Shown piece by piece: positions 1 through 64,000 of a stretch of DNA of 64,000 nucleotides. The position numbers and the translations under genes were made by a program. The notes under the pieces were generated by a model. It searched no databases. It was not told where the DNA came from and saw only the letters and a program-made list of their open reading frames with translations. The DNA lies in assembly GCA_946415315.1 (NCBI GenBank), contig CAMKRZ010000002.1, positions 62,001 through 126,000 of the forward strand, written 5' to 3'. Position 1 is the first letter of the stretch; every line of letters begins with the position of its first letter. This DNA comes from an uncultured Lachnoclostridium sp. (GTDB lineage Bacteria > Bacillota > Clostridia > Lachnospirales > Lachnospiraceae).

Positions 1-203
1 GGGAAAATGCAAAGTGCGCATACGCAAAGTGCTGCTACTGCAAACGGATTCTTCAGATCCGCGTACGGAAGAGCCTTCATCTCCGCAAGAGAAGTCGGAA
101 TATCAACGAACGTGATATCCTTCTTCGGGTTTGTCTCCTGTGCGGAACTCGAGGTCCCGAGCGCGTCGGTAACTGTCTTTTTCAAATTGTCAAAAAAACC
201 CAT
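1..203 (-). CDS. N-terminal part of a small protein of unknown function (runs off left edge)
   Basis: About the first 67 codons lie in the window; the 3' end is beyond base 1. The protein begins MGFFDNLKKTVTDALG, followed by a short Ser/Gln linker, then a segment reading LAEMKALPYADLKNPFAVAA and a hydrophobic, Cys-containing stretch (ALCVCALCIF). The ATG at 203 follows a good AAAGGAG at a normal distance. The LPYADLKNPFAVAA type of segment resembles DUF6935, a family of unknown function in Firmicutes, but this is recalled by eye only. No signal peptide or catalytic motif is visible. It is read as a single gene from the promoter at 246-274. Confidence 0.65.
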   Translation of the reverse strand, partial: MGFFDNLKKTVTDALGTSSSAQETNPKKDITFVDIPTSLAEMKALPYADLKNPFAVAALCVCALCIF

Positions 204-245
204 GCTGGATGTTCTCCTTTCCTCGTATCTTTTCGATACAACAGG

Positions 246-274
246 ATTTTACCATAACGCAGCGGATTATGCAA
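246..274 (-). promoter_or_regulatory. Probable sigma-A promoter of the edge gene
   Basis: On the minus strand a -35 TTGCAT (269-274) and a -10 TAAAAT (246-251) are separated by 17 bases, about 40 bases upstream of the start codon at 203. The -10 matches the consensus at five of six bases; the -35 is weaker. Confidence 0.5.
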
Positions 275-302
275 CCTTTCCGGTCAAAAAAGTTAACTGT
301 AT

Positions 303-1487
303 TTACTTTTCATCATTCCAGTGATTCTGATCTCTCCATTCCAGCACCTCGCGAGGAACATATCTGCGTCGCATCATATGTTCGGCGATCAGTGCGCAGT
401 CGTTGCCGATCTCGCGATGTTCATACCGGATCAGCCAGTCGACAATATACTGAATTCCGAGAATCGTTTTTCGCTCCGTGACTCCATTTTCACGCATACC
501 GTACTCTGCCGCTGCGATTGCCTCCCGCCCGATCCGCATGTCCGTCTCATTTTTCCACTTTACATAGTCATCATCCGCTTCGACCCGATAGCTACCGCTG
601 CGACAACGTTCTGCAGCGAACCCGTTTTCCCACGTAAACCGTATCGGCGGTTCTCCTGCAAATGTCGAGCGGTACTCTCCCTCCGCCTCTGCAACATCAG
701 CGACAACCCCCGTGTTGTCCGCCCAGCGGTTTCGGAAGAAATCTCGTCCGGTTTCAACCTGTGTTCTCCGCGCGTAAAACAGATCGAGGTAATCCAATCC
801 ACGACCGTCCGAAAGATAGTTCTGAAGTAATCTTGTCATCTCCACATAGCAAAAACGCGAAAAATGATTCGGCAAACACTGATAAATTCGCGTCAGAAGC
901 GATTCTGTATCTCCCCCTCTTCCGAAAAAAACGAAAAAACATTTGTTGATCAGAGATCGATATCGTTCATAGAAATCGTTGAAGCTCTCGGTATTTACAG
1001 GTAGGCACACGACAACTACCTCTGCACGGTCAAGCATTTCAATGGTCGTGTCGTTGTTGCCTGCCTCCAGATTGAGATAGATATCATCATACTGGCTTTC
1101 CAGGTAGTCGATCTGCTGGTCCAGTACCTCGTGCATCATGAACCGATACGAATCCTCATACAGGCTTTGATCCATTGGCATAAACATCAGTCCGTTTCCG
1201 TCAGCCGGAATGACGGAATCTTTTCGAAACACTCGCCCCATTTCGCTGCAGACATGACGCGCATAGATCTCTCCTGCCTTATAATACACCGCACTCCCGC
1301 GCCTTGCGCCTCGCCGGACGGAATCGTACCGGCTCCCCAACATGTGATACCCCAGATTATGCGTATGCAGATAATTCTCAACGCCGACGATCGTACACGG
1401 ATATTTCCTGCAGCACATCCCACCGACCAGTGTCAGCATCTGAGCGGTCTCCTCCCGGTAATGCGGAGACCAGAAAACGATCAGCAT
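303..1487 (-). CDS. MinD/ParA-like protein with a degenerate P-loop
   Basis: 394 residues. The start MLIVFWSPHYREETAQML matches the layout of SIMIBI-class ATPases of the CpaE/TadZ kind that begin 'IVFWSP..GxxGTTSNL', but the glycines, lysine and threonines of the Walker A loop are replaced by REETAQM. A later segment, DDIYLNLEAGNND then AEVVVVCLPV (about residues 134-165), fits the beta-strands around the 'DxxAGN' region of that fold. The C-terminal third is charged and has no recognisable domain. It starts at ATG 1487 with GGAGG upstream. Nucleotide hydrolysis is unlikely; a scaffold or regulatory role is an inference. No flanking tad or flagellar genes are seen, so the process it serves is unknown. 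Confidence 0.7.
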   Translation of the reverse strand: MLIVFWSPHYREETAQMLTLVGGMCCRKYPCTIVGVENYLHTHNLGYHMLGSRYDSVRRGARRGSAVYYKAGEIYARHVCSEMGRVFRKDSVIPADGNGLMFMPMDQSLYEDSYRFMMHEVLDQQIDYLESQYDDIYLNLEAGNNDTTIEMLDRAEVVVVCLPVNTESFNDFYERYRSLINKCFFVFFGRGGDTESLLTRIYQCLPNHFSRFCYVEMTRLLQNYLSDGRGLDYLDLFYARRTQVETGRDFFRNRWADNTGVVADVAEAEGEYRSTFAGEPPIRFTWENGFAAERCRSGSYRVEADDDYVKWKNETDMRIGREAIAAAEYGMRENGVTERKTILGIQYIVDWLIRYEHREIGNDCALIAEHMMRRRYVPREVLEWRDQNHWNDEK

Positions 1488-2388: not shown

Positions 2389-2474
2389 TTGCGATTCCTT
2401 TCCCCGGATGGTACAATTTTCCGGGAGATGTCTTCCATACGGACATCTTCGATTCTGCGATCGCGAGGTGAAGA

Positions 2475-3395
2475 ATGTCCACGATTCTCCTACTTCTTCA
2501 AAATTCTGCTTCGGAACAGTTTCCCGTCGAGGCACTGCAAGACAGCGATTTCCTCGTCGTGTTGTCCGGTACTGACGAAACCGCTTCGCTGCTGAACCGT
2601 CACGACCGAAGTAACACACTTGTCGTCACCGATTCGGAAAATGTCGCGCGCACCGCGTCGGAAAACCATTTTCCGCTGATCGGTTATGAGCATGACGGGA
2701 TACGTCTTTCCTGTTCGGAGATCATCGATTCACTCGAGGCGCTTACGCAGGAATACTGCCGCGAAGAACTGCTTGTTCAGACCGGGCGCAAGCCGGTGTA
2801 CGCCGATGATACGATCAATCTGTTTCCCGTTTCGGAGGACGATTTTCTCACAGCATATGAACAATTTCGGGAAGAACCGCACATGCTCACCGATGAGCAG
2901 CGCTCTCTGGATCGATCCGGTGTGATCGCCCTGTACCGGAATCGTCAGGCGCTTGCCCAGTTCACGGAGAGCGTCGGTTCCTTTCGCGCGGAATCCCGCG
3001 GGAATACGGTCGGCTACGGGAGTCTTTATACGGAAAATGGCGTTGCCCCCATCCGCATGACCGTCGATTTCTACGTCATCCCCGAGTATCGTAGGATGGG
3101 ATACGGTGCCGCGATCGTCCGCGCACTGATCGCGATTTCACGCACCGACGTTTCTTCCCGGGACCTGTTCGCCGTGGTGCGGCCTGCTAACACGGCTTCC
3201 GTGCGAACGCTGAAAGCATGTGGTTTTTCCCTGATTGAAACAGTCGCTCCGGATGGAACGGTCACTCCCTGCCCATCGCATGCGCTGCCAGAAACGCCTC
3301 CAGCTCCCGCATCGCACTGTCCCTGTCACGCGCCGGGATTGAGTGAATCCCAAGCGCCTTCGCTGTACGTATATTGTCTTCACGGTCGTCGATAA
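2475..3395 (+). CDS. GNAT family N-acetyltransferase
   Basis: 306 residues. The GNAT core lies at about 150-260: FYVIPEYRRMGYGAAIVRAL is motif A, the acetyl-CoA pyrophosphate loop, followed by a NTASVRTLKACGF motif B. The first 100 residues form an alpha/beta region (LVVTDSENVARTA, PLIGYE) reminiscent of the C-terminal half of a HAD or Rossmann domain, but without catalytic residues. The last 45 or so residues, Pro/Cys/His-rich, are encoded antisense to the end of the HAD gene at 3262 and look like run-through past the domain boundary. A GAGGTG precedes the ATG at 2475. The substrate cannot be predicted. Confidence 0.8.
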   Translation: MSTILLLLQNSASEQFPVEALQDSDFLVVLSGTDETASLLNRHDRSNTLVVTDSENVARTASENHFPLIGYEHDGIRLSCSEIIDSLEALTQEYCREELLVQTGRKPVYADDTINLFPVSEDDFLTAYEQFREEPHMLTDEQRSLDRSGVIALYRNRQALAQFTESVGSFRAESRGNTVGYGSLYTENGVAPIRMTVDFYVIPEYRRMGYGAAIVRALIAISRTDVSSRDLFAVVRPANTASVRTLKACGFSLIETVAPDGTVTPCPSHALPETPPAPASHCPCHAPGLSESQAPSLYVYCLHGRR

Positions 3396-4929
3396 ACACA
3401 CTCTCGGAAGCCTTCAGCTGATACCGTGACAGCAGCAGTTCGTAGAAATCTTCGTTAGGTTTGAATCTCCGCTCGCATCCGGAAACGACATATCCGTCAA
3501 GAAGCGAGAGGAACGGGAGCGATTTCTCCTCGTGCAGTGCAAACATTTCACGCGGATAATTGGTTAACGCATATACGCGGTATCCCCGCTCTTTCAGTGA
3601 AAGTATGATCGATTCCGTGTCCGGGTACGGCTCGGCAAGCCGCTCGATCCCTTTGAAGAACCGCACAATGGCGTCCGAATACGCAGGCTTCATAGACGAC
3701 CAGCGAGCGATGGCATCCTCCTGGGAAAGCGCTCCCTCGTCCATGAGCTGCCATTCCTCGCGGAACAGTACGCGTTCCCGGAAGAATTCCCTGATCTCCG
3801 CCGAAAAGCCAAGTTCCTCCATGTACTCTTCCGGCCGAAGCCGTACTAACACGCACCCGAGATCGAAAATGACGTTCTTTATCTCCCGTCGCTCATGATC
3901 CGTGATCATCTGCATGCACATGGTCTCCATCTCATCGACGCAATGCTGAGGGCTCAAAAGCTTCACGCGGCTGCCCAGCGCCATGAGCCAAGCGAGGAAG
4001 AAACGGTTCGGCACGATCCGGAAGGAAAGCTCTACCCCATTTTCCTTCGTAAGAACGGATATCTCCTGTCCGATCTTGTCGACGAACATGCCGAGCATAT
4101 CCGTAGGGCAGCTCACACGCACACGCTCCGGTGTCCCGTCAAACATTTCAAATCTAGCCTGCGCATACAAATCCGGGCTCGACTGCTCCGCCGCCTCGCT
4201 TCCTTCGCGAGGTTTCTCCAGGATATGGATATTGCGCATCTTATCCACGCGGAAGGTTCTCATTCCGCCTCGTATCCCGTCATATGCTCCCAGATAATAA
4301 TTTTCATGGTTATAGACAAGCCACCACGGACTGATCCCGGAACGAGGCTTACCATCGCGCGAAACCAGCTGCATCCCGGAATTCCATTGAAGGTACTCAA
4401 ACTCGATCTGGCGGTTCTCGCGGATCGCCTTCTGGATCGGATCCACGTTGGAGTAGCCGCCGTCATCGGTGTCCGTGGCGTGTCTTCGGATATACACGGT
4501 ACGGTTCAGTTCCCGCCGCTCCTTCGCGCTGACCATATGCTCCAGTTTACCGATCAGCTCACGCGACTTCTTCTCCGTCACGAACTTGGAAGCAGCGATG
4601 ACATCCGCCAGCAGTTTGATCTCCGCCAGCGTCAACAGCCGTCCGTCCGCGTAGTAGCGTGTTTCATTGTCCTTCCGGTAACTCTCAACGCGAATGGCTT
4701 CCCCGAACTCGTTGATCGCGCGGATATCGCTGTAAATGCTCTTTCTCTCCGCGCTTACCCCGCATTCTGCCAGCCGGTCGATCAACTCTGTCATCGTAAT
4801 GCCGTCACCTTTCGATGTACATTCCGAAAGGATCTTCATGATATAGCACAGTTTCAGTTTCTGATTTTCCGCTCTTGCCACATCTTCCTCCGTAACATTA
4901 CGGAAAATGCCCTGCCCAAACCGGTGCAT
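3262..4929 (-). CDS. WYL-domain transcriptional regulator fused to a HAD hydrolase
   Basis: 555 residues from the ATG at 4929; a TTG three codons upstream is a less likely start. Residues about 20-75 form a winged helix (LKLCYIMKILSEC, MTELIDRLAECGVSAERKS). Residues about 130-330 are a WYL domain with PWWLVYNHENYYLGAY and a WCX-like C-terminal extension. At about residue 350 the frame runs straight into a HAD hydrolase: NVIFDLGCVLVRL (motif I, second Asp replaced as in YihX-like phosphatases), YALTNYP (motif II), RRFKPNEDFYELLL (Lys motif) and VFIDDREDN (motif IV). The layout suggests a ligand-binding regulator joined to a phosphatase, possibly acting on a related metabolite; that is inference. 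It overlaps the convergent GNAT gene by 134 bases. Confidence 0.8.
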   Translation of the reverse strand: MHRFGQGIFRNVTEEDVARAENQKLKLCYIMKILSECTSKGDGITMTELIDRLAECGVSAERKSIYSDIRAINEFGEAIRVESYRKDNETRYYADGRLLTLAEIKLLADVIAASKFVTEKKSRELIGKLEHMVSAKERRELNRTVYIRRHATDTDDGGYSNVDPIQKAIRENRQIEFEYLQWNSGMQLVSRDGKPRSGISPWWLVYNHENYYLGAYDGIRGGMRTFRVDKMRNIHILEKPREGSEAAEQSSPDLYAQARFEMFDGTPERVRVSCPTDMLGMFVDKIGQEISVLTKENGVELSFRIVPNRFFLAWLMALGSRVKLLSPQHCVDEMETMCMQMITDHERREIKNVIFDLGCVLVRLRPEEYMEELGFSAEIREFFRERVLFREEWQLMDEGALSQEDAIARWSSMKPAYSDAIVRFFKGIERLAEPYPDTESIILSLKERGYRVYALTNYPREMFALHEEKSLPFLSLLDGYVVSGCERRFKPNEDFYELLLSRYQLKASESVFIDDREDNIRTAKALGIHSIPARDRDSAMRELEAFLAAHAMGRE

Positions 4930-4935
4930 TTTCCG
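4901..4935. repeat. Inverted pair of the GGAAAATG word at the start of the WYL-HAD gene
   Basis: CGGAAAATGC (4901-4910) and GCATTTTCCG (4926-4935) form a perfect 10-bp inverted repeat with a 15-base loop. The ATG of the WYL-HAD gene lies inside the second arm, so the hairpin in mRNA could cover its start. Confidence 0.7.
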
Positions 4936-5004: not shown

Positions 5005-5015
5005 TGAAGTTCGAT

Positions 5016-6187: not shown

Positions 6188-8443
6188 ATGAGTGATACCT
6201 GTGTAAAACTGCATGAAGGGGGCATTTTCCTCGTTGACGGTGTCCCTTCGACCGAAGCGCCCGTGAGCGCGGAGGAAGCTCGTCGCCAGACGATCGCGTA
6301 CAACATTCTGTCCTCCCACAACACGTCGGGCAATGACAGCAAACTGAAGATAAAATTCGATGCCATGGTGTCTCACGACATCACCTATGTCGGCATCATC
6401 CAGACGGCTCGTGCCAGCGGACTCACAGAATTCCCGCTTCCCTACGCCATGACGAACTGCCACAACAGCCTTTGTGCGGTCGGTGGCACGATCAATGAGG
6501 ACGACCATGTATTCGGTCTCTCCGCTGCGAAGAAATTCGGCGGCATCTACGTTCCCGCGAACCAGAGTGTCATCCACTCCTACGCGCGTGAAGAGCTGAC
6601 CGCATGCGGCAATATGATCCTCGGTTCCGACTCTCACACCCGCTACGGTGCTCTCGGTACGATGGGCGTCGGCGAGGGCGGTCCGGAGCTTGTCAAGCAG
6701 CTTCTCAACAACACCTGGGACCTCAACATGCCCGAGGTTGTTCTGGTATATCTGACCGGTACGCCGAAGCGCGGTATCGGCCCTCATGATATCGCCCTTG
6801 CTCTTGTGAAGGCGACGTTCGCAAACGGCTTCGTCAAGAACCGCGTGATGGAGTTTGTCGGCCCCGGTGTCAAAAATCTTCCGATCGATTTCCGCAACGG
6901 CATCGACGTCATGACGACCGAGACCACCTGCCTCTCCTCCATTTGGGAGACCGATGAGATCACAAAGGGTCATTATGTTGCTCATGAGCGTGAGCAGTTC
7001 TTCAAAAAACTTGCTCCCGGCTCCTGCGCATACTACGATCGCTTCATAACCGTTGACCTTGACAAGGCAGAGAGCATGATCGCTCTTCCCTTCCATCCGT
7101 CGAACGCTTACACGATCCACGAGTTCGTCGCCAATGCCGATGAGATCCTCGCGGATGTTGAGGCTGAGGCAGCAGCAAAGTTCAAGGGACACAAGTACGA
7201 TCTTCGCAGCAAGGTTCGCAACGGTAAGGTTTACGCGGACCAGGGCGTGATCGCAGGCTGCTCGGGCGGTCTGTTCGACAATATCGACGAGGCTGCGGCA
7301 ATCCTTGATCAGAAGAACTGTGGCAACGGTTATTTTTCGCTCAATGTCTATCCTACCAGCGTTCCTGTAAGCCTCGAGCTCACGAAGATCGGTGCGACCG
7401 CATCGCTTCTCAAGGCCGGCGCGATCATCAAGCCGTCCTTCTGCGGTCCCTGCTTTGGTGCCGGTGACGTTCCTGCGAACGACGGTCTCTCGATCCGCCA
7501 TACGACACGGAACTTCCCGAACCGCGAGGGTTCCAAGCCGTCCGACGGACAGCTTGCCGGCGTTGCCCTGATGGACGCGCGCAGCATCGCTGCCACGGCA
7601 GCCAACGGCGGAGTGATCACCGCGGCGACCGATATCGATTACGAAGTTCCGAAGCACGAGTATCATTTTGATAAGACTGTGTACCGCAACCGCGTATATT
7701 ACGGATTTGGCAAGGCGGACAAGAATGCCGAGCTCATTCTCGGACCGAACATCACCGACTGGCCTTCGATGGAGGCACTCACGGACAATATGCTCGTAGA
7801 GCTTGCTGCAGTCATCCGCGATCCGGTCACTACGACCGATGAGTTGATCCCTTCAGGTGAGACCAGTTCCTACCGGAGCAACCCTCTTCGCCTTTCCGAG
7901 TTTGCGCTCTCCCGCCGTGTTCCCGAGTATGTCGGACGCAGCAAAGCCATCCACGCTCTCGATCTGGCAAGACAGAACGGTGAGGCGCCGGAGAAACTGG
8001 TGAGAGCGCTCTCCGCGTTCGGCGATGCGGCTGCTCTTCTTACGAACACGCAGTTCGGTTCCTGCGTCTTCGCGAACCGTCCCGGTGACGGATCCGCCCG
8101 CGAACAGGCCGCTTCCTGCCAGAAAGTTCTCGGCGGTTACGCAAACATCTGCTACGAGTACGCAACCAAGCGCTACCGCAGCAACTGCATCAACTGGGGT
8201 ATTCTTCCGTTCACGCTTCCGGAGGGAGCTGAGTTCCCTTATGAGGAAGGCGATTTCGTCTTCATCCCGGATGTGCGCGCAAAGATCGCCGCAGGCGAGA
8301 CCGATTTCCCTGCCAAAGTGCTCTCGAAGGACGGCTCCGTGAAGGACATTCTTCTTCAGATCATCGGCCTCACCGATGAGGAGAAGACGATCATCCTCGA
8401 CGGATGCCTGATCAACTACTACGCAGAACAGAACCGTCGCTGA
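6188..8443 (+). CDS. acn: Aconitate hydratase
   Basis: 751 residues, a full-length aconitase that interconverts citrate and isocitrate with a [4Fe-4S] cluster. Seen in the sequence: LGSDSHTRYGALGTMGVGEGG, the substrate-binding SDSHT region, a first cluster cysteine in IAGCSGG, and the pair in PSFCGPCFGAGD. A swivelling C-terminal domain with SSYRSNPLRLSEF follows, ending near SNCINWGILPF. It belongs to the divergent group often called simply 'hydratase' in Clostridia, so homoaconitase-type activity is less likely but not excluded. The start at 6188 follows AAGGAG; the frame extends earlier into leader DNA. It is the first gene of an operon with icd, 26 bases apart, which points to 2-oxoglutarate and glutamate synthesis. 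Confidence 0.9.
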   Translation: MSDTCVKLHEGGIFLVDGVPSTEAPVSAEEARRQTIAYNILSSHNTSGNDSKLKIKFDAMVSHDITYVGIIQTARASGLTEFPLPYAMTNCHNSLCAVGGTINEDDHVFGLSAAKKFGGIYVPANQSVIHSYAREELTACGNMILGSDSHTRYGALGTMGVGEGGPELVKQLLNNTWDLNMPEVVLVYLTGTPKRGIGPHDIALALVKATFANGFVKNRVMEFVGPGVKNLPIDFRNGIDVMTTETTCLSSIWETDEITKGHYVAHEREQFFKKLAPGSCAYYDRFITVDLDKAESMIALPFHPSNAYTIHEFVANADEILADVEAEAAAKFKGHKYDLRSKVRNGKVYADQGVIAGCSGGLFDNIDEAAAILDQKNCGNGYFSLNVYPTSVPVSLELTKIGATASLLKAGAIIKPSFCGPCFGAGDVPANDGLSIRHTTRNFPNREGSKPSDGQLAGVALMDARSIAATAANGGVITAATDIDYEVPKHEYHFDKTVYRNRVYYGFGKADKNAELILGPNITDWPSMEALTDNMLVELAAVIRDPVTTTDELIPSGETSSYRSNPLRLSEFALSRRVPEYVGRSKAIHALDLARQNGEAPEKLVRALSAFGDAAALLTNTQFGSCVFANRPGDGSAREQAASCQKVLGGYANICYEYATKRYRSNCINWGILPFTLPEGAEFPYEEGDFVFIPDVRAKIAAGETDFPAKVLSKDGSVKDILLQIIGLTDEEKTIILDGCLINYYAEQNRR

Positions 8444-8469: not shown

Positions 8470-9687
8470 ATGAACAAGATTCAGATGACCACTCCGCTCG
8501 TCGAGATGGACGGCGATGAAATGACCAGAATCCTCTGGAAAATGATAAAAGACGAACTGATCCTCCCCTTCGTCGACCTGAAGTCGGAATACTACGACCT
8601 CGGTCTTGTCAAGCGTGAGGAAACAAAGGATCAGATCACTCTTGACGCAAGTTACGCTGCGAAGAAGTACGGCGTAGCCGTCAAATGCGCGACGATCACA
8701 CCGAACGCACAGCGCGTCACCGAGTACAATCTCTCCCAGATGTGGAAAAGCCCGAACGGTACGATCCGCGCCATCCTGGACGGCACCGTTTTCCGTGCTC
8801 CGATCATGATCGACTCGATCAAGCCCAACGTGCGCACCTGGACGAAGCCGATCACCATCGCCCGTCACGCATACGGTGACGTGTATAAGAACACCGAGTT
8901 CCGGATCCCCGGCAAGGGCAAGGCAGAGCTTGTGTTCACCGGTGAGGACGGAACCGAGATGCGCGAGACGATCTACGATTTCGAGTGCCCGGGCGTGCTG
9001 CAGGGCATGTACAACAAAGACACCTCGATCGAGTCGTTCGCACGCAGCTGCTTCGAGTACGCGCTCTCTGTGAAGCAGGATCTCTGGTTCTCCACCAAGG
9101 ATACGATCTCCAAGAAGTATGACCATCGCTTCAAGGACATTTTCCAGGAGATCTACGACAACGAATACAAGGAGAAGTTTGAGGCTGCCGGTATCACCTA
9201 CTTCTACACGCTGATCGATGATGCCGTGGCTCGTGTCATCCGCTCCAAAGGCGGTTTCATCTGGGCCTGCAAGAACTACGACGGCGATGTCATGAGCGAC
9301 ATGGTGAGCACCGCATTCGGTTCCCTCGCGATGATGACAAGCGTGCTTGTGAGCCCTGACGGAAATTACGAGTACGAGGCTGCACACGGAACCGTGACAC
9401 GCCACTACTACCGCTACCTGCAGGGTGAGGAAACCTCGACAAACCCGGTTGCCACAATCTTCGCATGGTCCGGCGCCTTCCGTAAGCGCGGTGAGAAGGA
9501 CGGTCTTGCCGATCTCGTTCGCTACGCTGACTGTCTGGAGGCAGCTGTTCTCAAAACGCTCAATGACGGCATCATGACGAAGGACCTTGCCGGCATGGTG
9601 AGCGAAGGCTACACCGCAACGGCAGTGAATTCCGCGGACTTCATTGCAGCGATCCGCGAACGCCTCACCGCAATGCTTGAGCAGTGA
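8470..9687 (+). CDS. icd: Isocitrate dehydrogenase (NADP+), eukaryote-like type
   Basis: 405 residues. The protein oxidises and decarboxylates isocitrate to 2-oxoglutarate. It resembles the homodimeric IDH1/IDH2-like group rather than E. coli Icd: EMDGDEMTRILWKMIKDELI at the N-terminus, VKCATITPNAQRV, the substrate loop MWKSPNGTIRAILDGTVFR, ARHAYGDVYK, and the coenzyme site around EAAHGTVTRHYY. Those signatures favour NADP+. AAGGAGG lies seven bases before the ATG at 8470. It is the last gene of the acn-icd operon, and a strong terminator follows. Confidence 0.93.
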   Translation: MNKIQMTTPLVEMDGDEMTRILWKMIKDELILPFVDLKSEYYDLGLVKREETKDQITLDASYAAKKYGVAVKCATITPNAQRVTEYNLSQMWKSPNGTIRAILDGTVFRAPIMIDSIKPNVRTWTKPITIARHAYGDVYKNTEFRIPGKGKAELVFTGEDGTEMRETIYDFECPGVLQGMYNKDTSIESFARSCFEYALSVKQDLWFSTKDTISKKYDHRFKDIFQEIYDNEYKEKFEAAGITYFYTLIDDAVARVIRSKGGFIWACKNYDGDVMSDMVSTAFGSLAMMTSVLVSPDGNYEYEAAHGTVTRHYYRYLQGEETSTNPVATIFAWSGAFRKRGEKDGLADLVRYADCLEAAVLKTLNDGIMTKDLAGMVSEGYTATAVNSADFIAAIRERLTAMLEQ

Positions 9688-9790: not shown

Positions 9791-9858
9791 TGCAGTTTGT
9801 GATGAATTTCGTCTTCGGCTTCATTTTCCGAAGCAAAGGAATCTGCGGTACGCTGCTG

Positions 9859-12573
9859 CTAGATATCGTATTGTGCCAGTATTCCGCTCGGTGTCTTCCG
9901 CAAGATCAGAAGTACCGGAATGATGCCGCAGAAGATTCCCAGGGCATACAGGAACACCAGTATCAGCAAAGCATACCAGATCGGATAATAGAACAGCGTC
10001 GTGTTGGCCTGAATATACAAACTGGCCGCGCTTCCGATCAGATAACCCAGGAAAATACTTAAGGAAACGACAACGCCGGCTTCCACTGCGAATCGGAAAA
10101 TCACGTTCTTGCGCGTCACGCCGATCGCACGGTAGATGCCGATCTCTCTGGAACGATTCATGATCATCGATTTCATGATGAAATACATGCACACACTCAT
10201 GAAACCTACAATGACAAGCAACGTGACTCCGATCGGCACGATTTCCCCCTTGAATTCCGCGAAACATAGACTGCGAACATCCTTCGGCGTGTAAATGGCA
10301 AGCGGCTCATAGGCGTCCCCACCATACCAGCCTTCCGGAGCAATGACATCACTGAAATTGTCCTTCAGGTACTTCTCCGCAGCCTCAATATCCGTTGCGT
10401 GAACGGCATAATACGGTTTGTAATCGTACGACTCCACGGCTGCGTCAACGGACCGGTACGTGAAATAATAATTGTAGCTTCCTCTGATAAACGCCCCGGG
10501 TGTTGATCCGATTCGTGAACTGCATTCAAGGAAATCTTCCCGGTTGAGGATGATGAATGAAAGGTTATCTCGCTGTATCGCTTCATTGTACCGATATGTG
10601 TTATCAATGATCTCCTGATATCTCTTCGCAAAATCGCTCGTTTCGCTGTAGAATTCCTCGGCAGGAGCTACGGCCTCAATGATCCTTCCGATCCGGAAGT
10701 CCATACCGTGAACCCGTATGGTGTCCCCGACCTTGAAGTTTTTTACTTCCGCGAACATGTCTTCGCCGTAACTCATCTCGGCCTCGTCCTCCGTATAGTG
10801 CCGGACAAAGACAACCTCGCCACGCGCAATACCGAAATGTCCGTCAACTTCACAGAGAACTCCCTCGGTTCCCCCATACCTGTCGTTGCCGTACATGCTG
10901 TACGCCGCGTGAAGCATCGGGTCAATGAAAATCGTGTTTTCATCCGAATCGATCACACATCCGATCCGATAAGCATCCTGCTCGGTATAGTACCGATTGA
11001 CGGAGACCCATCCACACTCAACGCCCAGCAGATCTTCATACTCTCTGATATAGTCGTAAGGGAAATCTCGCAGCATTTTGTCCGCGACCATTTTTGTTAC
11101 GACTACCTTTCCTTCTCTGCGGCACTCTTCCGGATCGCCCGCCAGTATCTTCCCGTCACCCATGACATCATACGGCAGGACAAACGCGTTCAGGGAAACA
11201 TCGCCGTATATGCTCCTTCCCGAGGTATAGTAACCGAAACTCTCAAATCCGCTCGGGTTGAATTTAATGTTCGCTTCTGTAGGCCGACTATACACAGAGA
11301 GAAACCGCACTGTTGCAAAATCAATACCGGACGAAGGGTCCGAAAGAGCCTTCTGCATACGCTCGCCGACACTGTCATTTTGCGCATAGACATAGAAAAT
11401 ATTGTGGTCATACTTTTCGTTGAGGCGCAGATATTCGCGAATACCCGTTCCGAACAGTGCGCTCATAAACACGAATACGATCGCGAAAAATGCAAGCGTC
11501 CTGCGCAGTCGTTTCTTACTCTTCTGCGTCATCATCGACTTGAAATTATAACTGTAGCCACGCTTTAACGAGGTCTTTAAATCAAACAGTTTTCCGTAGT
11601 CTGATCCCTCGAACGGCGGCAGCGCCGACATGTCAAACTCCTGCCTCTGTCGCTCCTGCTGCTCCTGTGCCGTGTAGACACCATCATGAAATTTCAATTC
11701 GCTGAATTCGTCGATCACCGCTACGTTCGGCGTGTCGATCCGAAGCAGTAATCGTCCGTTATGGTTGACTACCGTCAGTTTGAGCGGCTCATCCGGCTTG
11801 TTGCCGTAATAGTTCACGCTCACTTCCTCATTGCCGATGTTCTCCGACTCGTAATCTCCGAGGTAAACATCGTTCTTGCTCTTGACAGCGTACCCGTTGG
11901 CGCTTTCGTTCACCTTCGTGCCGACGATCCGGCCGTCCTTAAGTTCAATGACCGTGTCGCAGTAGTAGTCGACAAGCTGTTCCTCGTGGGTAACCAAAAG
12001 AACAAGGTGCTCCTTCGACATCTCCTTCAAAATGTCCATCACCAGAACGGTGTTGGCCTCGTCCAGGTTGCCGGTCGGCTCGTCAGCGAGGATGATCTTC
12101 GGGTTCTTTACGATGGCGCGCGCGATGGCGACACGCTGCTGCTGACCGCCCGAAAGCGTGTCCGGATAGCGCTTGCTGAACTTGTCCATACCGACGTTGG
12201 CGAGCGCCGCCATAACGCGGCGTTTGATCTCCTCTTCGTCGCGCATGCCGCACAGAAGCAGGGAGTCGGACACATTTTCAAAGACCGTCTCGTCGTTGTT
12301 CAGGTTATAGTTCTGGAAAATGAAACCGATGTACCGGTTGCGCAGCAGATCTGTCTTCTGCTGCATATTGAGACCGTCGATCGTGAGGATGCCGGACTCA
12401 TAATTGTCCAATCCGCCGATCACGTTGAGGAGCGTCGTCTTACCGCAGCCGGAAGGTCCGAAGATCGCACACATTCCGGTCTCGGGGATGCTCATCGTGA
12501 CATCGTTGATGACGTGAATCTCATTTTGTCTGCCTTTGTTGTAATACTTCTGAAGACCGTTCAGTTCGATCAT
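9859..12573 (-). CDS. ABC transporter, fused ATPase and FtsX-type permease (second of pair)
   Basis: 904 residues. The ATPase occupies about 1-225: Walker [15 protein letters not shown]-loop FIFQNYNL, signature [15 protein letters not shown], Walker [13 protein letters not shown] and VTHEEQ. A first membrane segment near 375 ([17 protein letters not shown]-like) precedes a large extracellular domain, and three segments close the protein ([51 protein letters not shown]), ending [14 protein letters not shown]. This is the MacB/FtsX mechanotransmission layout with the ATPase in front. The ATG at 12573 overlaps the TGA of the upstream gene by one base, so the two are translationally coupled and probably form a heterodimer. 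Substrate unknown; export or defence against peptides is a family-based guess. Confidence 0.85.
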
Positions 12574-14882
12574 CACTCCTCACCTCCCCTCAACGTTTTC
12601 TTGACACTTGTTCCGAAGAGATTCTTGATCTGCTTTCGCGTGATACGGATCGTCAGATACAGCATGCCGCCGATCAGAACGACATACTGCCACGGCTGCA
12701 GATACCAGTATCTTCCGTTCCACTCTTCGTTGTGGTAGATGATGTAAGCCGCGACCGGCAACAGGATCAGCGAGGGAACAAGCGAGATCAGCATGCGCAC
12801 ATAAATGCCGACCCGGATAACCTTGGCCGGGATTCCCATCGAGCGCATGATCGCGATGTCATCCCGGAACGCCGCCACCGTGCGGTTTGTGCACATGTTG
12901 ACAAACATGGCGATGAAGAAAATGCTGAGCACCCACATCACAGCATACAGGAATCCGACAAACAAACGCTCGATGATATCTCCCATATCGGATTTGTACG
13001 TCATGTCGGAGGAAACCGCGATATATCCGTCCTCCCCGAGATCATCGACAAGGCGTTTTGCCTTTCCGTCGCTGTTGAAAAACAGACTGGCCTGCTTATA
13101 ATCAGATGTTACAGCACCACCGCACAATTTCTCGGCAACATGGATTCCGATACGGCAGATAATCTGCCCCTGTAGTTCATTATCACCGTACATAGCGGAA
13201 ACAGACGCAGGTCTCTCAGTTGTAAACGTATCCCGTCCGAACGTGCATGTATTACTTTTCTTACCTCCGGCCGTTCTCGTCGGATACGCTTCGTACATCC
13301 AATCTCCCCAAACATCGTAGTATCCTTGATTTCCGCCCGAGTAATTATTCTCATACTTCAGTGTCATAGAAACGTTTTCACCGTTTTTCAAACACTTCAG
13401 GAAGGTCGGATCGGAATAATAAATTTTATCCGGATCCATCTGCGTATCAACCGTGATATCAAGGAATGTTAAATCCAAATCCAGCAGCAGTTCCGAGCCA
13501 TCCACAGAAACTGCTTTGATGTTCTGCTGTCCGTCGATGATCATGGAGAGCGTATGATACCCTTCCTCCGTGACAACAGCCGTCATGTCTTTGGAGTTAT
13601 CCGCTATATACACGATCCCGCTGATCGTATAGATAAGTCCGTTCAGTTCCACTGTCGTAACGGAAAGAGAATCCTTGCCGTATATTTTCTGATAAAAGAT
13701 CGGAAGCCGAAGCAAAAGTTCCGTTTCGCTCTCCGGATACCTGCCGATGCTCGGTGTACCGAAGTTCTCGCCGACAGTGATGAAGAAAACCCCGTTGTGG
13801 AACTTGTCCTCTTCATAGTAATACATGTAATCTTCACTGGTTTCCGTGAGATTCCCGAGTTTTCTGTCCAGCAGGTAATCATAGTGAATTGACTTCTTCG
13901 CTCCGTATTTGTCCGCCAGTCCCTGTAATTCTTCGTCTGTGATTGCCCCTCCGTCCTTACGGATGACTACGAGACGACCTTCCATCGGGCGGAACATATG
14001 GTTTTTCTCAAACAATTTCTGGGCATCGCCGCAGAACATCGTCATCAAAAAAACACCCATTGTACCAAGCAACAGCAAAAGGCACAGAAAAATGCTCAGC
14101 TTCGGCTTTGCGAAGAAGATGGAACGACCGAGCAAAAGGCCGTTCGAAAGCATCGAAACATGCCCGCTTTCCTCAACCGGAGTGTAGTCCTTCTCCTCCG
14201 GTTGCGTAATCATCTGGTCCGCCTCCACAGCGCCGTCATAAACGCGCACGTGTCTCGTTGCAAACTCCGACACCTGATCGTAACTGTGTGTGACCATGAT
14301 CAGAAGCTTGTCCTTGGAAACCTCACGAAGAAGCGCGATGATCTCGCGCGAGGTCTCCGCATCCAGGTTACCCGTAGGCTCGTCCGCAAGGATGATCGGG
14401 CTGTCCTTCGCGAGTGCCCTGGCGATGACCGTCCTCTGCTTTTGGCCGCCGGAGAGCTGGCTGCCCTTCTGACGCATATGTTTCTTCAGCCCGACGCGCT
14501 CGATCAGTTCGATCGCACGGCGTCTGCGCTCCAGAGGATCCGTGATCGTCATGAGCGCGAGTTCAACGTTCTGAAGCACCGTAAAGCTCTCCAGAATGTT
14601 GTAATTTTGGAAAATGAACGAAATGTACTTCTCCCGGTACTCCTCCCAGTCCGGCTGGAGGTAGTGCGACGTCGGCTGTCCCTCGATGAACAGCTCGCCT
14701 TCCTCGTAGGAGTCCATGCCGCTAAGGACGTTCAAAAGCGTGGATTTACCGGAACCGGACGCACCGGTGATCGCGACAAATTCGCCCCGCTCGAACGACA
14801 GATTGACTCCGCGGATACCTACCGTCACATTGCCTTCGGACACGTAGATTTTCCCGATGTTCTGCAAACGCAGGAATGACAT
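12573..14882 (-). CDS. ABC transporter, fused ATPase and FtsX-type permease (first of pair)
   Basis: 769 residues. ATPase at about 1-220 with [57 protein letters not shown] and VTHSYDQV. A membrane segment near 265-285 (FLCLLLLLGTMGVFLMTM) is followed by about 350 extracytoplasmic residues, then FLYAVMWVLSIFFIAMFVN, ISLVPSLILLPVAAYI and YVVLIGGMLYLTI. The same architecture as its partner but with a shorter ectodomain indicates a two-gene transporter of two unlike fused subunits. AGGGGGAGG lies upstream of ATG 14882. A broken paralogue lies directly upstream at 14906-15431, so the locus once held more copies. Confidence 0.85.
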   Translation of the reverse strand: MSFLRLQNIGKIYVSEGNVTVGIRGVNLSFERGEFVAITGASGSGKSTLLNVLSGMDSYEEGELFIEGQPTSHYLQPDWEEYREKYISFIFQNYNILESFTVLQNVELALMTITDPLERRRRAIELIERVGLKKHMRQKGSQLSGGQKQRTVIARALAKDSPIILADEPTGNLDAETSREIIALLREVSKDKLLIMVTHSYDQVSEFATRHVRVYDGAVEADQMITQPEEKDYTPVEESGHVSMLSNGLLLGRSIFFAKPKLSIFLCLLLLLGTMGVFLMTMFCGDAQKLFEKNHMFRPMEGRLVVIRKDGGAITDEELQGLADKYGAKKSIHYDYLLDRKLGNLTETSEDYMYYYEEDKFHNGVFFITVGENFGTPSIGRYPESETELLLRLPIFYQKIYGKDSLSVTTVELNGLIYTISGIVYIADNSKDMTAVVTEEGYHTLSMIIDGQQNIKAVSVDGSELLLDLDLTFLDITVDTQMDPDKIYYSDPTFLKCLKNGENVSMTLKYENNYSGGNQGYYDVWGDWMYEAYPTRTAGGKKSNTCTFGRDTFTTERPASVSAMYGDNELQGQIICRIGIHVAEKLCGGAVTSDYKQASLFFNSDGKAKRLVDDLGEDGYIAVSSDMTYKSDMGDIIERLFVGFLYAVMWVLSIFFIAMFVNMCTNRTVAAFRDDIAIMRSMGIPAKVIRVGIYVRMLISLVPSLILLPVAAYIIYHNEEWNGRYWYLQPWQYVVLIGGMLYLTIRITRKQIKNLFGTSVKKTLRGGEE

Positions 14883-15494: not shown

Positions 15495-16616
15495 TTACTC
15501 CGCTAAGCCCGGCAGTATCTCCCGGATCCTCGCCGTCAGCACTTCCGCGGCACTCTCGTGCGCGGGATGCCCCGGGTGCCACCGGGAACCGAACATCCCC
15601 GGCTTCGTGTCCGGCAGGCGCAGATAATCGACACGGTCATCCCTGCTCTCCTCCCGGTACGCCCGGATTGCCGCAAGGATCGGCTCTTCCATGTCTGTTC
15701 CGAGCATTCCGTACACCCACAACAGATACGCCTGCGGATGGCAACTGCGAAGCTTCGCAAGGAACCCTCTGACTGCCCCGTCAAATGCAGCTGCGCTTGC
15801 AGCGTCAAGTGAGCCGTCCTCGCCCTTCGCAAGCTTGTATGTTCTGCCTGTCTCAGGGTCCGTGTATGCCTCCGCGTTGCACGCTCCGGAATCGTTGGTG
15901 CCAAGGTTGATCACAACCACATCGGGCTGAAACGCCTCAAAATCATACGGTTCCAGTGAGCCGAACACGCCTTTGCCGTCGACCGAGACGAGTGAACACA
16001 CCGCATCGTAGATGCCGGGCACATTGGAATGAATATCATTGTTATAGCCGCAGTACACGCCCCAGCCGCTCTGCGAGACCACCTGGTAATCCGCCGAAAG
16101 CGCTTCAGCCGTCTTGTACGCGTAATTATCGTATCCGGAGAACAGCTGTGCCACCCAGTCCATCTCTGCGTTGGCACCGATCCCACCTTCGCCCGAGGTG
16201 ATCGAATCGCCGATAAACTGAATCCGGCATTTCGGTTCCGCCACCGGTTCCAGTGTACCGTCCGTCTCGACCTTCGTCAGCCGGATGTAACCCTCGCCGT
16301 CGCCCGGCATGGGCTGCACTTCCTTGAGGATGCGTACATTTTTCGTCTCTTCCGCGTTGCGGTTTCGGAAAATGATCACCTCATTGTCACCGCGCAACAA
16401 CGGCATGCGGCACAGAAGCGCCCCGTTGATCACAACCGCGATCCACTGCTCCTGCATGCCGTATGCAGCTTCGATATGCACCGTGAGGTTCGCTGCGCGC
16501 ACATTCATTTCATAGCGGCTCCCGGTCCAGAACAATACGTCCGGAGCCTCCTTCGACACACGGCCGAGAATCTTCACATTTTTCACAATTGCGCCCTCGT
16601 GTATTGCGGCAACCAC
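15495..16616 (-). CDS. SGNH/GDSL carbohydrate esterase, CE2-like
   Basis: 373 residues, starting at GTG 16616 with no strong ribosome binding site nearby. The first 130 residues make a beta-rich jelly-roll-like domain (WTGSRYEMNVRAANLTVHIEA). The SGNH domain follows: FIGDSITSGEGG (block I with nucleophile Ser), VVINLGTNDSGA (block III) and SRWHPGHPAHE (block V His). A beta-sandwich in front of an SGNH domain is the plan of carbohydrate esterase family 2, which deacetylates xylan and other glycans. There is no signal peptide, so it would act on imported oligosaccharides. It ends a probable operon of unrelated functions. Confidence 0.8.
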   Translation of the reverse strand: MVAAIHEGAIVKNVKILGRVSKEAPDVLFWTGSRYEMNVRAANLTVHIEAAYGMQEQWIAVVINGALLCRMPLLRGDNEVIIFRNRNAEETKNVRILKEVQPMPGDGEGYIRLTKVETDGTLEPVAEPKCRIQFIGDSITSGEGGIGANAEMDWVAQLFSGYDNYAYKTAEALSADYQVVSQSGWGVYCGYNNDIHSNVPGIYDAVCSLVSVDGKGVFGSLEPYDFEAFQPDVVVINLGTNDSGACNAEAYTDPETGRTYKLAKGEDGSLDAASAAAFDGAVRGFLAKLRSCHPQAYLLWVYGMLGTDMEEPILAAIRAYREESRDDRVDYLRLPDTKPGMFGSRWHPGHPAHESAAEVLTARIREILPGLAE

Positions 16617-24240: not shown

Positions 24241-24278
24241 AAATACTCCCTCCGTGATTGTTTCATTTCGTTCGGAAA

Positions 24279-24296
24279 ATGCCGTGAATATGGCAT
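24279..24296. promoter_or_regulatory. Possible operator in the xylB leader
   Basis: ATGCC and GGCAT form an inverted repeat with an 8-base spacer, 16 bases downstream of the -10 element, a place where a repressor would block transcription. The short arms make this tentative. Confidence 0.25.
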
Positions 24297-35626: not shown

Positions 35627-35682
35627 GTTTCTCTGTATTACATGCAGGAGACGCCGTCTTGACGTCTCCCGCATTTTCCGTA

Positions 35683-38208: not shown

Positions 38209-38305
38209 GATGTGTGCTTTCCTTTCATTCATCCAGTATTTATCGGCGTCAGCGTTCTTGAGACGGTAACCTCGCGAGCAGCGCTCACTCAGTGTACATG
38301 CGCGC

Positions 38306-38596
38306 AAAAACGCCTCTATCTTCCTTTCGGAAAATAGAGGCGCTGATAAACGCGGTACCACTCTACTTCATGATCGCTCATGCACTCAGTGAGCACGGAC
38401 AGTCGTCGATGCTCTTCCCTCTGGTAACGGCGGGCTCCCGGCACGATCTACACAACCTTCGGTCTTCAATCGGCAGCTCCCAGGCGAGTTCACCCTGCAT
38501 CTTCGACTGTCTCGCATCCACCGACAGCTTTCTGAACCGGATACACGGTTACTATTCCTGCTCAACGCATTTTCCAAGGACTAAAAAGTCCCGTTG
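38306..38596 (-). promoter_or_regulatory. T-box leader riboswitch
   Basis: Transcribed on the minus strand from about 38596. Stem I has the distal AGAAAGCTGTCGGTGG (38518-38533) followed by GATGCGAGACAG, and the specifier region GGGTGAACTCGCC, where CTC (38486-38488) is the likely codon (Leu); ACT for Thr one base earlier cannot be excluded. The T-box itself is AGAGTGGTACCGCG (38351-38364). GTAGAG in front of it can pair with CTCTAT as antiterminator, competing with the terminator CGCCTCTAT/ATAGAGGCG (38311-38319 with 38334-38342) followed by TTTTT (38306-38310). Uncharged tRNA binding permits transcription of the fusion gene at 38208. Confidence 0.92.
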
Positions 38597-52648: not shown

Positions 52649-52673
52649 CATTTGTGCGGAAAATGTTCCGCTA

Positions 52674-53482: not shown

Positions 53483-54709
53483 TTACTGAAGGTCGTCCGC
53501 AGCTGCAACGCCCGGAAGCTCCTTACCCTCAAGGAACTCAAGGGAAGCGCCGCCACCGGTCGAGATGTGGGACATCTTGTCAGCGAAGCCGAGCTGGTTG
53601 ACAGCTGCAGCGGAGTCGCCGCCGCCGATGATCGTCGTAGCGTCGGTCTCAGCAAGAGCTGCTGCTACAGCGATGGTACCCTTTGCAAGGATCGGGTTCT
53701 CGAAGACACCCATAGGTCCGTTCCAGACAACCGTCTTCGCGGTCTTAACAGCCTCAGCGTAGAGAGCCTGCGTCTTCGGTCCGATATCCATGCCCATCTT
53801 GTCAGCCGGAAGTTTGTCGGAATCGAAAACTTCGGTCTCGATCGGAGCATCGATCGGATCCGGGAAGGAAGCCGTAACAACAGTATCTACAGGAAGAAGG
53901 AGCTTCTTGCCGAGAGCCTCAGCCTTGTCCATCATCTCCTTGCAGTAATCGATCTTCTCGTCATCGCAGAGGGAGGTACCGATCTCATAGCCCTTAGCCT
54001 TGAGGAAGGTGTAAGCCATACCGCCGCCGATGATGAGCGTATCGCACTTCTCGAGAAGGTTGTTGATAACGTTAAGCTTGTCCGCTACCTTAGCACCGCC
54101 GAGGATCGCTACAAAAGGACGTACCGGATTCTCAACAGCATTGCCGAGGAAGTTGATCTCCTTCTGCATCAGGTAACCTACAGCGCAGTTGCCGCCCTTA
54201 GCGCGAACAACATCCGTAACACCTGCTACGGAAGCGTGTGCTCTGTGGGAGGAACCGAATGCGTCACATACATAATCGTCGCAAAGGTCAGCGAGTTCCT
54301 TGGAAAATGCCTCGCCGTTCTTGGTCTCCTCGGAGCCGCGGAAACGCGTGTTCTGAAGAAGAACCACATCACCCTCGTTCATTGCTGCAACAGCTGCCGT
54401 TGCGTCCGCACCGGTAACGTTGTAATCTGCAACGAAGGTAACCTTCTTGCCGAGCTTCTCGGAGAGACGCTCAGCAACGGGAGCAAGGCTCTCACCCTCG
54501 TTGGGGCCGTTCTTAACCTTGCCGAGATGGGAGCAAAGGATCACCTTTGCGCCGTCGTTAAGGAGCTTGTTGATAGTGGGAAGAGCCGCAACAATACGGG
54601 TCTCATCGGTGATCACACCGTTCTTGAGCGGAACGTTGAAATCGCAGCGAACGAGAACTCTCTTGCCCTTTGCGTTGAAATCGTCAACAGACTTTTTGTT
54701 CAGAGACAT
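53483..54709 (-). CDS. pgk: Phosphoglycerate kinase
   Basis: 408 residues from ATG 54709. Substrate site [57 protein letters not shown] and the nucleotide loop [15 protein letters not shown] are all present. It transfers phosphate from 1,3-bisphosphoglycerate to ADP. AAAGGAATTG lies upstream, and a hairpin separates it from gap. Confidence 0.97.
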
Positions 54710-55919: not shown

Positions 55920-56019
55920 GTCCAATTTTGGGTTTTTTGAGCAGTATGGCATTTTCCCCAAATCATCGTAAAAATGTTTGTTTTTTTTGTTCATTGTTAC
56001 TGTTTTCCGCACATGCAAA

Positions 56020-59116: not shown

Positions 59117-59149
59117 ACTAATTCCCCCTTTTTGAAAAGTAAAAACCCG

Positions 59150-59168: not shown

Positions 59169-59174
59169 AATACC

Positions 59175-59203: not shown

Positions 59204-59228
59204 CCTTTTTGAGGATTCGCGGAAAATG

Positions 59229-61853: not shown

Positions 61854-61870
61854 GGGTTCCCTGTCCTTTT

Positions 61871-62572
61871 TTACCACTCGATCTCGTCCACCGGAAGCAC
61901 CTGCTCGTTCCGGTACATATTCTTGATCCTGCCGCTGCTGACCTCGATCACGCGGTCGGCCATCTTCGTGATCGCCTGGTTGTGCGTGATGATCACAACG
62001 GTCATATCGTACTTCTTCGCCGTCTCCGCGAGAAGCGCGAGGATTGCCTTTCCGGTCTTGTAGTCAAGCGCGCCGGTCGGCTCGTCACACAGCAACAGCT
62101 TCGGTTTCTTCGCCAAAGCCCGCGCGATCGCCACGCGCTGTTGCTCTCCGCCCGACAACTGTGCCGGAAAATTCTTTGCCCGGTCCGCAAGTCCGACCGC
62201 TGCGATCACTTCATTTGCGTCGAGCGGTTCTCGGCAGATCTGCGAGGCAAGTTCGACATTTTCCACGGCGGTGAGATTCTGGATCAGATTGTAAAACTGA
62301 AATACGAACCCGATGTCCGCGCGGCGGTATTCGGTCAGTTTCCTGCGGTCGTACGCGGATATCGTCTCGCCGTCCAAAAGGATCGTACCGTCCGTCGCGG
62401 TGTCCATCCCACCTAAAATGTTGAGGATCGTCGTCTTGCCGGCGCCGGATGCCCCGACCACCACGCAGATCTCGCCCTTCTCGATCTCAAACGACACACC
62501 GTTCAGGGCGGGGATGGTCACCTCGCCCACGCGGTAAATCTTCGTCACATCATGGAATTCCACGTAACTCAT
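61871..62572 (-). CDS. ABC transporter ATP-binding protein, LolD/MacB type
   Basis: 233 residues from ATG 62572, six bases after CGGAG. Complete set of motifs: [72 protein letters not shown] and VIITHN. It powers the FtsX-type permease directly downstream. It starts 11 bases after the topB stop, so it may be co-transcribed with topB. Confidence 0.92.
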
Positions 62573-62583
62573 AGCGTTCTCCG

Positions 62584-64000
62584 TCAACGATAGTACGAAT
62601 CCACCACACGGAACTGATTCCGCAGCACGTCATGGTCCTGCTTCGCCTTCGCGTAGTCGGTCCATTTGGTGACGTATGCCTCCAGTTTCTCGAGGTACTC
62701 CTTCTCGGTCGTAACACCGTCGGCCACCTGTGTCAGACCCTTCTCCCAGCTCGCAGTGAGCTCCGGGTTGAGGAGTGACCGAATGGACACGAATACCACG
62801 TAAAATACAAGCTCCCCGAGTTTCTTCGGCGTGATCACCTGTGTCTTCTTGTTGAGGTTCAGGTAGTTGATCTTGATCAGTTTATTCAGGATCTCGGCGC
62901 GCGTTGCGCTCGTTCCGATACCGCTGCCCTTGATCTGCGCGCGGAGCTCCTCGTCCTCGATGAGCTGGCCCGCATTTTCCATCGCAAGGATCAGGGAACC
63001 GGAGGTATAACGCTTCGGCGGCTTGGTCTCGCCCTCGCGCAGCTCGTAACCGGACACATCGATCTTCGCGCCCTTCTTCAGTGCCTTGATCCGGTCAAAC
63101 AGCGCCGTGTCGAGCACTTCCTCGGGCTCTTCCTCGGGCTTGTCGGAGTCCTTGCCGTCCTCCTTGTCCTTGCCCTTCTTCGCCTCCTTCGCCTCGTCCG
63201 CTCCGGCGCGCTTCGCCTCGTCCGTGCCGTACAGCGCAAGGTATCCGGGATTCTCCAGCACCTTGAAACTGCTGAAGAAATGCTCGGATTTTACTTCAAG
63301 TTCCATTGAAATCTTCTGGTATTCTGCCGGCGGGTAGAAAATCGCCAGGAAACGTCGAACGATACGGTCATACACTTTCCGCGCAAGCTCGCCGATCGAA
63401 GCAAGCTCCGACTGGCCTTCGCCTGTCGGTATGATCGCGTAGTGGTCCGTGATCTGCTTATCATTGACGTACCGCGTCTTCGCGATGTTCGCGTACAGTC
63501 CGAACTCCTTGACCTGCCTCGTGTACGGCAGATATGTCTCATTCTTCGAGAGCCCCGCAAGGTTCTTCGTGATCTCCTTCGCAACCGCTGTTGAGAGCAC
63601 GCGCGCGTCGGTTCTGGGGTACGTCACCAGCTTTCGCTCGTAGAGCATCTGCGTGATCTTCAGCGTCTCGTCGGGACTGATCTTAAAAAGCCGCGAGCAC
63701 TCGTTCTGAAGCTCCGCTAAGTTGAACAGCAGCGGAGGATTCTTCTTCTCTTTCTTCTTCTCTATGTTCGTGAGCGTTGCCCGGGAACACTCCGGATCGG
63801 AACCGTCCACGAGAAAATGGTTGTCAGGGTTGTCCGTAACCGCTTTTGCAACGTTATCGGTTGCCGCGGGAACGGTTGCTTCCCCGATAGTATCTGTTGA
63901 CGCGGTCGCTGCTGTCTCTTCTTCACCGGATGGCGGATTTACCGCTTTCGCAGCTTCCTGCAAATCTTCGCTCACCGCAGGCGCTTTCACCCCGCCGAGC
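62584..64000 (-). CDS. topB: DNA topoisomerase III, C-terminal part (runs off right edge)
   Basis: About 472 codons lie in the window; the frame stays open to base 64000, so the N-terminal Toprim domain is outside. The catalytic tyrosine is in LYERKLVTYPRTDARVLS, and PPLLFNLAELQNECSRLF, QITDHYAIIPTGEG and KGSGIGTSATRAEILNKL are type IA signatures. Two low-complexity inserts occur: a Thr/Ala/Val-rich stretch near the left of the visible part (ETAATASTDTIGEAT) and a Lys/Glu/Asp stretch near 63105-63220. No zinc-finger tail is present; the protein ends VDSYYR. Confidence 0.9.
   Translation of the reverse strand, partial: LGGVKAPAVSEDLQEAAKAVNPPSGEEETAATASTDTIGEATVPAATDNVAKAVTDNPDNHFLVDGSDPECSRATLTNIEKKKEKKNPPLLFNLAELQNECSRLFKISPDETLKITQMLYERKLVTYPRTDARVLSTAVAKEITKNLAGLSKNETYLPYTRQVKEFGLYANIAKTRYVNDKQITDHYAIIPTGEGQSELASIGELARKVYDRIVRRFLAIFYPPAEYQKISMELEVKSEHFFSSFKVLENPGYLALYGTDEAKRAGADEAKEAKKGKDKEDGKDSDKPEEEPEEVLDTALFDRIKALKKGAKIDVSGYELREGETKPPKRYTSGSLILAMENAGQLIEDEELRAQIKGSGIGTSATRAEILNKLIKINYLNLNKKTQVITPKKLGELVFYVVFVSIRSLLNPELTASWEKGLTQVADGVTTEKEYLEKLEAYVTKWTDYAKAKQDHDVLRNQFRVVDSYYR

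Follow-up and report, generated by a model that had tools for sequence, protein, structure and literature searches.

Introduction

DNA uptake sequences (DUS) and uptake signal sequences (USS) are known, as one part of a 2025 paper has it (PMC12616744), only in two proteobacterial families, the Neisseriaceae and the Pasteurellaceae. The DUS of Neisseriaceae, with ComP as its receptor, occurs in many copies, in inverted pairs and in dialects around a conserved core (PMC3630211 and PMC12616744, in the parts concerned), and the USS of Pasteurellaceae is a 9-bp motif with an inner core, dialects and inverted pairs, for which ComN/PpdA is a candidate receptor (same part of PMC12616744). A DNA-binding minor pilin with a C-terminal GRxR motif, FimT, is described from Legionella and other Gammaproteobacteria in a portion of PMC8897410. 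The passages at hand of the TerminatorNet paper, on frequent words in the terminators of thousands of genomes, name only the two known families (PMC13020248), and among the papers listed by our searches of an open-access library, with no preprints and few subscription papers, no title or abstract opening mentions an uptake sequence from Bacillota. Here, we describe a short word, GGAAAATG, and its longer form with a 5' C, CGGAAAATG, in a window of 64,000 bases (the whole stretch of DNA analysed, G000:C2:62001-126000) from the 2.93 Mb, 97.5% complete assembly G000, which belongs to a rumen and gut genus of Lachnospiraceae that we know solely from assembled metagenomes.

Like the DUS and USS, the word occurs in high copy number on both strands, in genes and in gaps, and in dialects around a core. 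Genome-wide copies, inverted pairs and the conserved core recall the DUS, but that core is AAAT and not CTG, the sequence is unrelated, the phylum is another, copies are fewer, and the ComP_DUS cut-off of 27.3 bits was reached by none of ten scanned pilus-operon proteins, the best being the operon's first pilin at 17.9 bits. With the USS the word shares a 9-bp motif, an inner core, dialects and inverted pairs, but again no relationship in sequence. FimT compares with our candidate receptor, a short minor pilin that has a conserved C-terminal TG[KR] stretch where FimT has GRxR, although homology is seen only in the N-terminal part of the candidate.

In most of the tests made on sequence, the word acts as an uptake sequence would, which makes it a candidate member of the class. 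We think that CGGAAAATG is probably, though by no means assuredly, the genus's local dialect of a DNA uptake sequence. Under this proposal a surface DNA receptor would bind the word, cells would preferentially take up DNA carrying it, and repeated chromosomal replacement by word-carrying fragments would let it accumulate, chiefly where DNA has been resident for long, by molecular drive. The receptor may be one of the minor pilins of the type IV pilus, such as the short one at G000:C5:78755-79264, and this is the weakest step of the proposal.

Abundance of the word

The window contains 39 exact copies of GGAAAATG (19 plus, 20 minus), a number reached in none of 100 dinucleotide shuffles (mean 2.73, largest 7). 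An earlier note on this DNA had reported strong over-representation from a list of 38 sites, nearly all of which stand; it missed the plus-strand copy at 8537 and gave as 43963 a site that begins at 43964, and its count of 24 copies with the 5' C, 12 per strand, was correct. Expectations from an order-3 Markov model, which are inflated by the word itself, are 5.5 for the 8-mer and 2.4 for the 9-mer. The copies in the window are as follows.

2..9, plus: GGAAAATG word
2635..2675: inverted pair of CGGAAAATG, 2635-2643 (plus) and 2667-2675 (minus)
3031..3039, plus: CGGAAAATG word
4038..4045, minus: GGAAAATG word
4901..4935: inverted pair of CGGAAAATG, 4901-4909 (plus) and 4927-4935 (minus)
6223..6230, minus: GGAAAATG word
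8537..8544, plus: GGAAAATG word, absent from the earlier list
9138..9145, minus: GGAAAATG word
9822..9830, minus: CGGAAAATG word
12315..12322, plus: GGAAAATG word
14609..14616, plus: GGAAAATG word
16366..16374, plus: CGGAAAATG word
20962..20969, plus: GGAAAATG word
22273..22281, minus: CGGAAAATG word
24273..24281, plus: CGGAAAATG word
25908..25916, minus: CGGAAAATG word, inside addA
28001..28009, minus: CGGAAAATG word, inside addA
30086..30094, plus: CGGAAAATG word, inside addB
30561..30569, minus: CGGAAAATG word, inside addB
31721..31729, plus: CGGAAAATG word, inside addB
32093..32101, minus: CGGAAAATG word, inside addB
35672..35680, minus: CGGAAAATG word
36550..36557, plus: GGAAAATG word
38568..38575, minus: GGAAAATG word
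38873..38880, minus: GGAAAATG word
42832..42840, plus: CGGAAAATG word
43964..43972, minus: CGGAAAATG word, inside Clp-family ATPase gene
45836..45844, minus: CGGAAAATG word, inside Clp-family ATPase gene
49157..49165, plus: CGGAAAATG word
49284..49319: inverted pair of CGGAAAATG, 49284-49292 (plus) and 49311-49319 (minus)
52657..52665, plus: CGGAAAATG word
54302..54309, plus: GGAAAATG word
55950..55957, minus: GGAAAATG word
59220..59228, plus: CGGAAAATG word
62257..62264, minus: GGAAAATG word
62973..62980, minus: GGAAAATG word

The same excess was found when counting was extended to the whole 2.93 Mb, as the note had proposed: far from the Markov expectation, CGGAAAATG has 1019 copies (506 and 513 by strand), against 4 + 7 = 11 for the word read backwards. 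In 464 kb sampled from G000, GGAAAATG ranks first of the 280 orderings of its own letters (297 copies; next 77, median 11); a sample of 484 kb holds 301 copies, about one every 1.6 kb. The over-representation in window and genome is real, and chance does not account for it.

Placement, anatomy and pairing

Placement was analysed in 464 kb of G000 (21 stretches including the window), with genes taken from a simple codon-score caller. There, 169 9-mers divide into 68 sense, 48 antisense, 52 intergenic and 1 across a gene end; the intergenic copies lie in about 15% of the DNA. Per kb, genes of G000 hold about 0.30 copies and the gaps between them 0.74-1.21. Codon usage, which the earlier note had discounted on the ground that sites fall in several frames and gaps, is indeed no explanation, as a synonymous-codon shuffle gives about 8.6 coding 9-mers where 116 are observed and all six frames exceed expectation. 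The excess is uneven, with sense frame 1 alone holding 48 of the 116. A dispersed repeat or mobile element was likewise rejected, there being no flanks in common among 168 sampled sites.

The word is a graded motif, tolerant at its ends and strict in its AAAT core. Variants that differ by one letter at positions 1-4 and 9 show 1.6- to 10-fold enrichment (168 sites sampled), positions 1 and 9 being loose and 2-4 partly loose (CGAAAAATG, for example, is seen 44 times against 7.5 expected), whereas variants within AAAT (positions 5-8) show no enrichment (105 seen against about 119 expected, summed). T is favoured at several bases 5' of the word (80 of 168 at -2) and, in a further difference from the USS, no AT-rich column downstream stands out among the 168 sites. 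Of 21 pairs of words separated by no more than 60 bp, 20 are inverted; about 304 kb of G000 gave 10 of 11, and more G000 sequence with four relatives gave 10 of 10. In DUS and USS systems, close inverted pairs often serve as terminators.

This anatomy bears on two alternatives. Context-dependent mutation or a mismatch-repair bias, such as very-short-patch repair, could turn near-words into the word, and would presumably act genome-wide, with little polarity and variably among lineages. However, near-words are enriched or about neutral and not depleted, inverted pairing is not predicted, and, to our knowledge, no repair bias resembles one with a 9-bp target and a tolerant rim; we regard this explanation as very improbable. 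Hardly credible to us is a restriction-modification or other epigenetic recognition motif, which a short, non-palindromic and lineage-specific word might suggest but which fits poorly with a word graded at both ends. Restriction-modification targets are usually neutral or avoided, not enriched about 10-fold.

The word becomes more frequent with the guanine-plus-cytosine (GC) content of 4-kb bins (Spearman 0.30, p 0.0008, 121 bins); an AT-rich word is thus scarcer in AT-rich bins, the opposite of what composition predicts. The trend fits accumulation in long-resident DNA, and a Chi site would yield the same trend. Over the bins the spread is uniform (variance/mean 0.91). Even spacing was rejected, with a coefficient of variation on C1 of 0.99 against 0.99 for random placement and only mild evenness on C2 (0.77 against 0.98, p 0.017).

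Such uniformity would suit the main rival to an uptake sequence, a cytoplasmic protein that binds the word genome-wide (nucleoid-associated, chromosome-organising or transcription-terminating) and whose changes the dialects would track. The tolerance pattern, which resembles binding, and the low polarity described below point the same way, but one site per about 1.6 kb, with every coding frame occupied, is more than one would expect of a selected site, and the scarcity in AT-rich bins, together with the turnover of places between species, is better matched by a self-spreading word. No such protein turned up, though no search aimed at one was made, and we consider this explanation unlikely.

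Strand polarity and the Chi question

According to part of PMC8022716, Chi occurs in excess, especially in core DNA, and is polarised on the leading strand. The earlier note had raised the possibility that the word serves as Chi for the AddAB nuclease of the window, where genes for AddA and AddB of the Gram-positive type occupy 25417-32801 on the minus strand and hold six copies of the 9-mer; AddA exceeds its curated cut-off, and the AddB model scores 559 bits, below its cut-off of 904. We tested strand bias, as that note had suggested, with the gene-majority strand as proxy for the leading strand in regions whose genes mostly share one direction. The word is near balance: beyond the even genome-wide split, it stands 148:111 in favour of the gene-majority strand (57%, p 0.025), 84:65 for the 9-mer (p 0.14), and 162 to 123 by GC skew. 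Other orderings of the same letters fall on the gene-majority strand in 72% of cases, and the word is therefore less polar than composition predicts.

A Chi site would share with the word its shortness and over-representation, a change in AddB could drive dialects, and the enrichment of Chi in core DNA would fit the GC trend as well (PMC8022716, in part). In contrast, the leading-strand polarity expected of Chi (same source) is weak here, falling below that of the permuted words; the word is about 2.5-fold denser between genes than inside them, its ends are degenerate or graded, and G006 and G017 retain AddAB matches yet have only background word counts. We therefore disfavour a Chi site for this AddAB and hold it to be quite improbable.

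Dialects, loss and turnover among relatives

Relatives retrieved through AddA include Lachnospiraceae metagenome assemblies. Of the 74 loci, four have a match at 100% DNA identity within the genus, the genomes matched being G004 (horse faeces), G009 (yak rumen), G014 (water buffalo rumen) and G020 (isolate RUG14085). Word discovery, run on 23-484 kb per genome, returned CGGAAAATG in G000, G009 and G002, CGGCAAATG in G007, and in G011 AAATGCGGCC, with the left side relaxed; the tendency is towards GGAAAATGTG-like and GGCAAATG forms in G001 and G018, and towards GGCAAATGTG/GGCAAATACG in G016 and G008. Samples below 30 kb for G014, G019, G005 and G015 were mostly uninformative, and larger samples of G005 and G014 gave the GGAAAATG form. 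The word is weak in G004, where other words rank ahead, and no clear dialect emerged in G006 or G017. Whole-genome counts confirmed two dialects besides CGGAAAATG, both keeping AAAT: CGGCAAATG is present 445 times in G012, 431 times in G007 and 354 times in G016 against 41 each in G006 and G017, and AAATGCGGC has 463 in G011 against 26-80 in the other 21 genomes.

Separately, CGGAAAGC/GCTTTCCG (37 seen, 10.4 expected) and TCTTAAGA (30 against 8.0) are enriched in G004 (L118-L122, L168), and CGGAAAGC may represent either a secondary form of the word or the stem of a terminator. ACCGGAAC/GTTCCGGT was seen 17 times against 2.8 expected in 23 kb sampled from G016 (L164, L137), and it was not among the top words listed for a larger sample.

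The density of CGGMAAATG, calculated as counts over rounded genome sizes, ranges from 477 per Mb in G010 down to 44-55 in G017 and G006, with 114 in G015. On a tree of four pilus proteins from 16 of the 22 genus genomes, the word-poor G017 and G006 and the weak G015 form one nested clade, and the word therefore probably decayed once there.

Conservation between relatives, a comparison proposed in the earlier note, came out mixed. Among alignable sites, those of GGAAAATG are intact above controls (9 of 23 in G005 and 13 of 31 in G014, where control 8-mers reach 18% and 23%), but those of CGGAAAATG are intact at 4 of 12 in G005 and 2 of 16 in G014, where control 9-mers reach 16% and 20%; the controls were 9-mers with four G/C among nine letters, and their first eight letters served as control 8-mers. 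Most word places are not retained between species, and places turn over. A DNA-binding protein would be consistent with the retention of 8-mer places at about twice the control rate.

Outside the genus, enrichment of CGGAAAATG is not clear in ten other genera of the family sampled at 40-80 kb each (0-4 seen against 0.5-3.8 expected; pooled 21 against 17.3). A survey of 250 family genomes, 248 of them outside the genus, with standouts picked by eye, found CGGMAAATG prominent and strand-balanced in G118 (648), G253 (517) and G134 (419), where reversed controls number 45, 24 and 60, and moderately raised in others (for example, 305 against 65 in G088). Several genera, represented by G118, G253 and G134, possibly carry the same system.

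Competence machinery and a candidate receptor

ComEC was found in 58 of the 61 genomes searched and in 20 of 22 in the genus, the two misses there being 79-82% complete; it therefore does not discriminate. ComEA occurs in all 22 genus genomes, in 21 over the cut-off, and G000 carries both proteins. A type IV pilus operon at G000:C5:66757-81521 encodes PilB-, PilT-, PilC-, PilD- and PilM-like proteins and several pilins, among which the PilB/PilT and some minor-pilin names are our own reading. Thirteen genus genomes combine completeness of 90% or more with contamination of 5% or less, and the candidate short pilin has an ortholog in every one of them. Across the genus the motor protein PilT is nearly constant, at 91-99% identity, and the candidate is 31-57% identical. 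Across the pilus operons L155-L169, the short pilin, a PilV-like pilin and a PilX-like protein have 24-57% identity to their G000 counterparts, which suggests a pilus tip that is changing fast.

A C-terminal residue of the candidate (ATYTGK) is K or R in 12 of 13 word-bearing orthologs and T in G015, G017 and G006 (n = 16). It was rejected as a determinant of the word: word-bearing G002 has E, and the three T-bearing genomes are one clade, so that the link between residue and word is a single event at best.

Several results weigh against an uptake sequence read by this pilus. A profile search of solved pilins in the PDB matched the candidate only in the first 71 profile positions, and in Pfam only N_methyl matched. 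That pilin signature was not found in five of the 22 genus genomes (the word-bearing G010, G012, G013, G020 and G021, in assemblies 79-91% complete), and the word-poor G006 and G017 retain the pilus operon. The earlier note's likening of the word to uptake sequences fits most sequence tests and gains from the dialects and inverted pairs, but no association with pilins was found outside the genus: among 22 genomes chosen by us, 3 of the 9 richer in the word and 8 of the 13 poor in it have pilins, and N_methyl pilins were not found in G253 (517 words, 98% complete) or G134 (419, 95%). To these we add the slight strand lean, the mixed conservation of sites, especially of the 9-mer, and the sisters G002 and G007, which differ at position 4, so that dialects and tree agree only partly. 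A DNA-binding protein would accommodate the word-rich genomes in which no type IV pilins were detected; under an uptake sequence, these genomes would hold either relic words, or bins from which the operon was lost, or another receptor, such as a Tad pilus or a surface protein.

Elsewhere in the window, an 892-aa frame (35683-38361, minus strand) matches fatty-acid CoA ligases over residues 340-881; its first 340 residues, unmatched among the 25 families listed, may form a domain of their own or stem from a wrongly placed start.

Conclusion

Here, we provide evidence for an abundant, graded word with dialects in a genus of Lachnospiraceae, and we are just inclined to accept that self-recognising DNA uptake arose independently a third time, within the Bacillota, with at least two further dialects, one word-losing clade and possibly several genera. 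If so, an uptake-sequence system would be the first in this part of the tree of life, and such a third case among Gram-positive gut bacteria would establish the repeated evolution of self-recognition. The dialects and the word-losing clade would then be useful for finding the receptor, and the word, added to donor DNA, would offer a practical key for the genetics of rumen bacteria, hard-to-study organisms in which frequent natural transformation would be implied.

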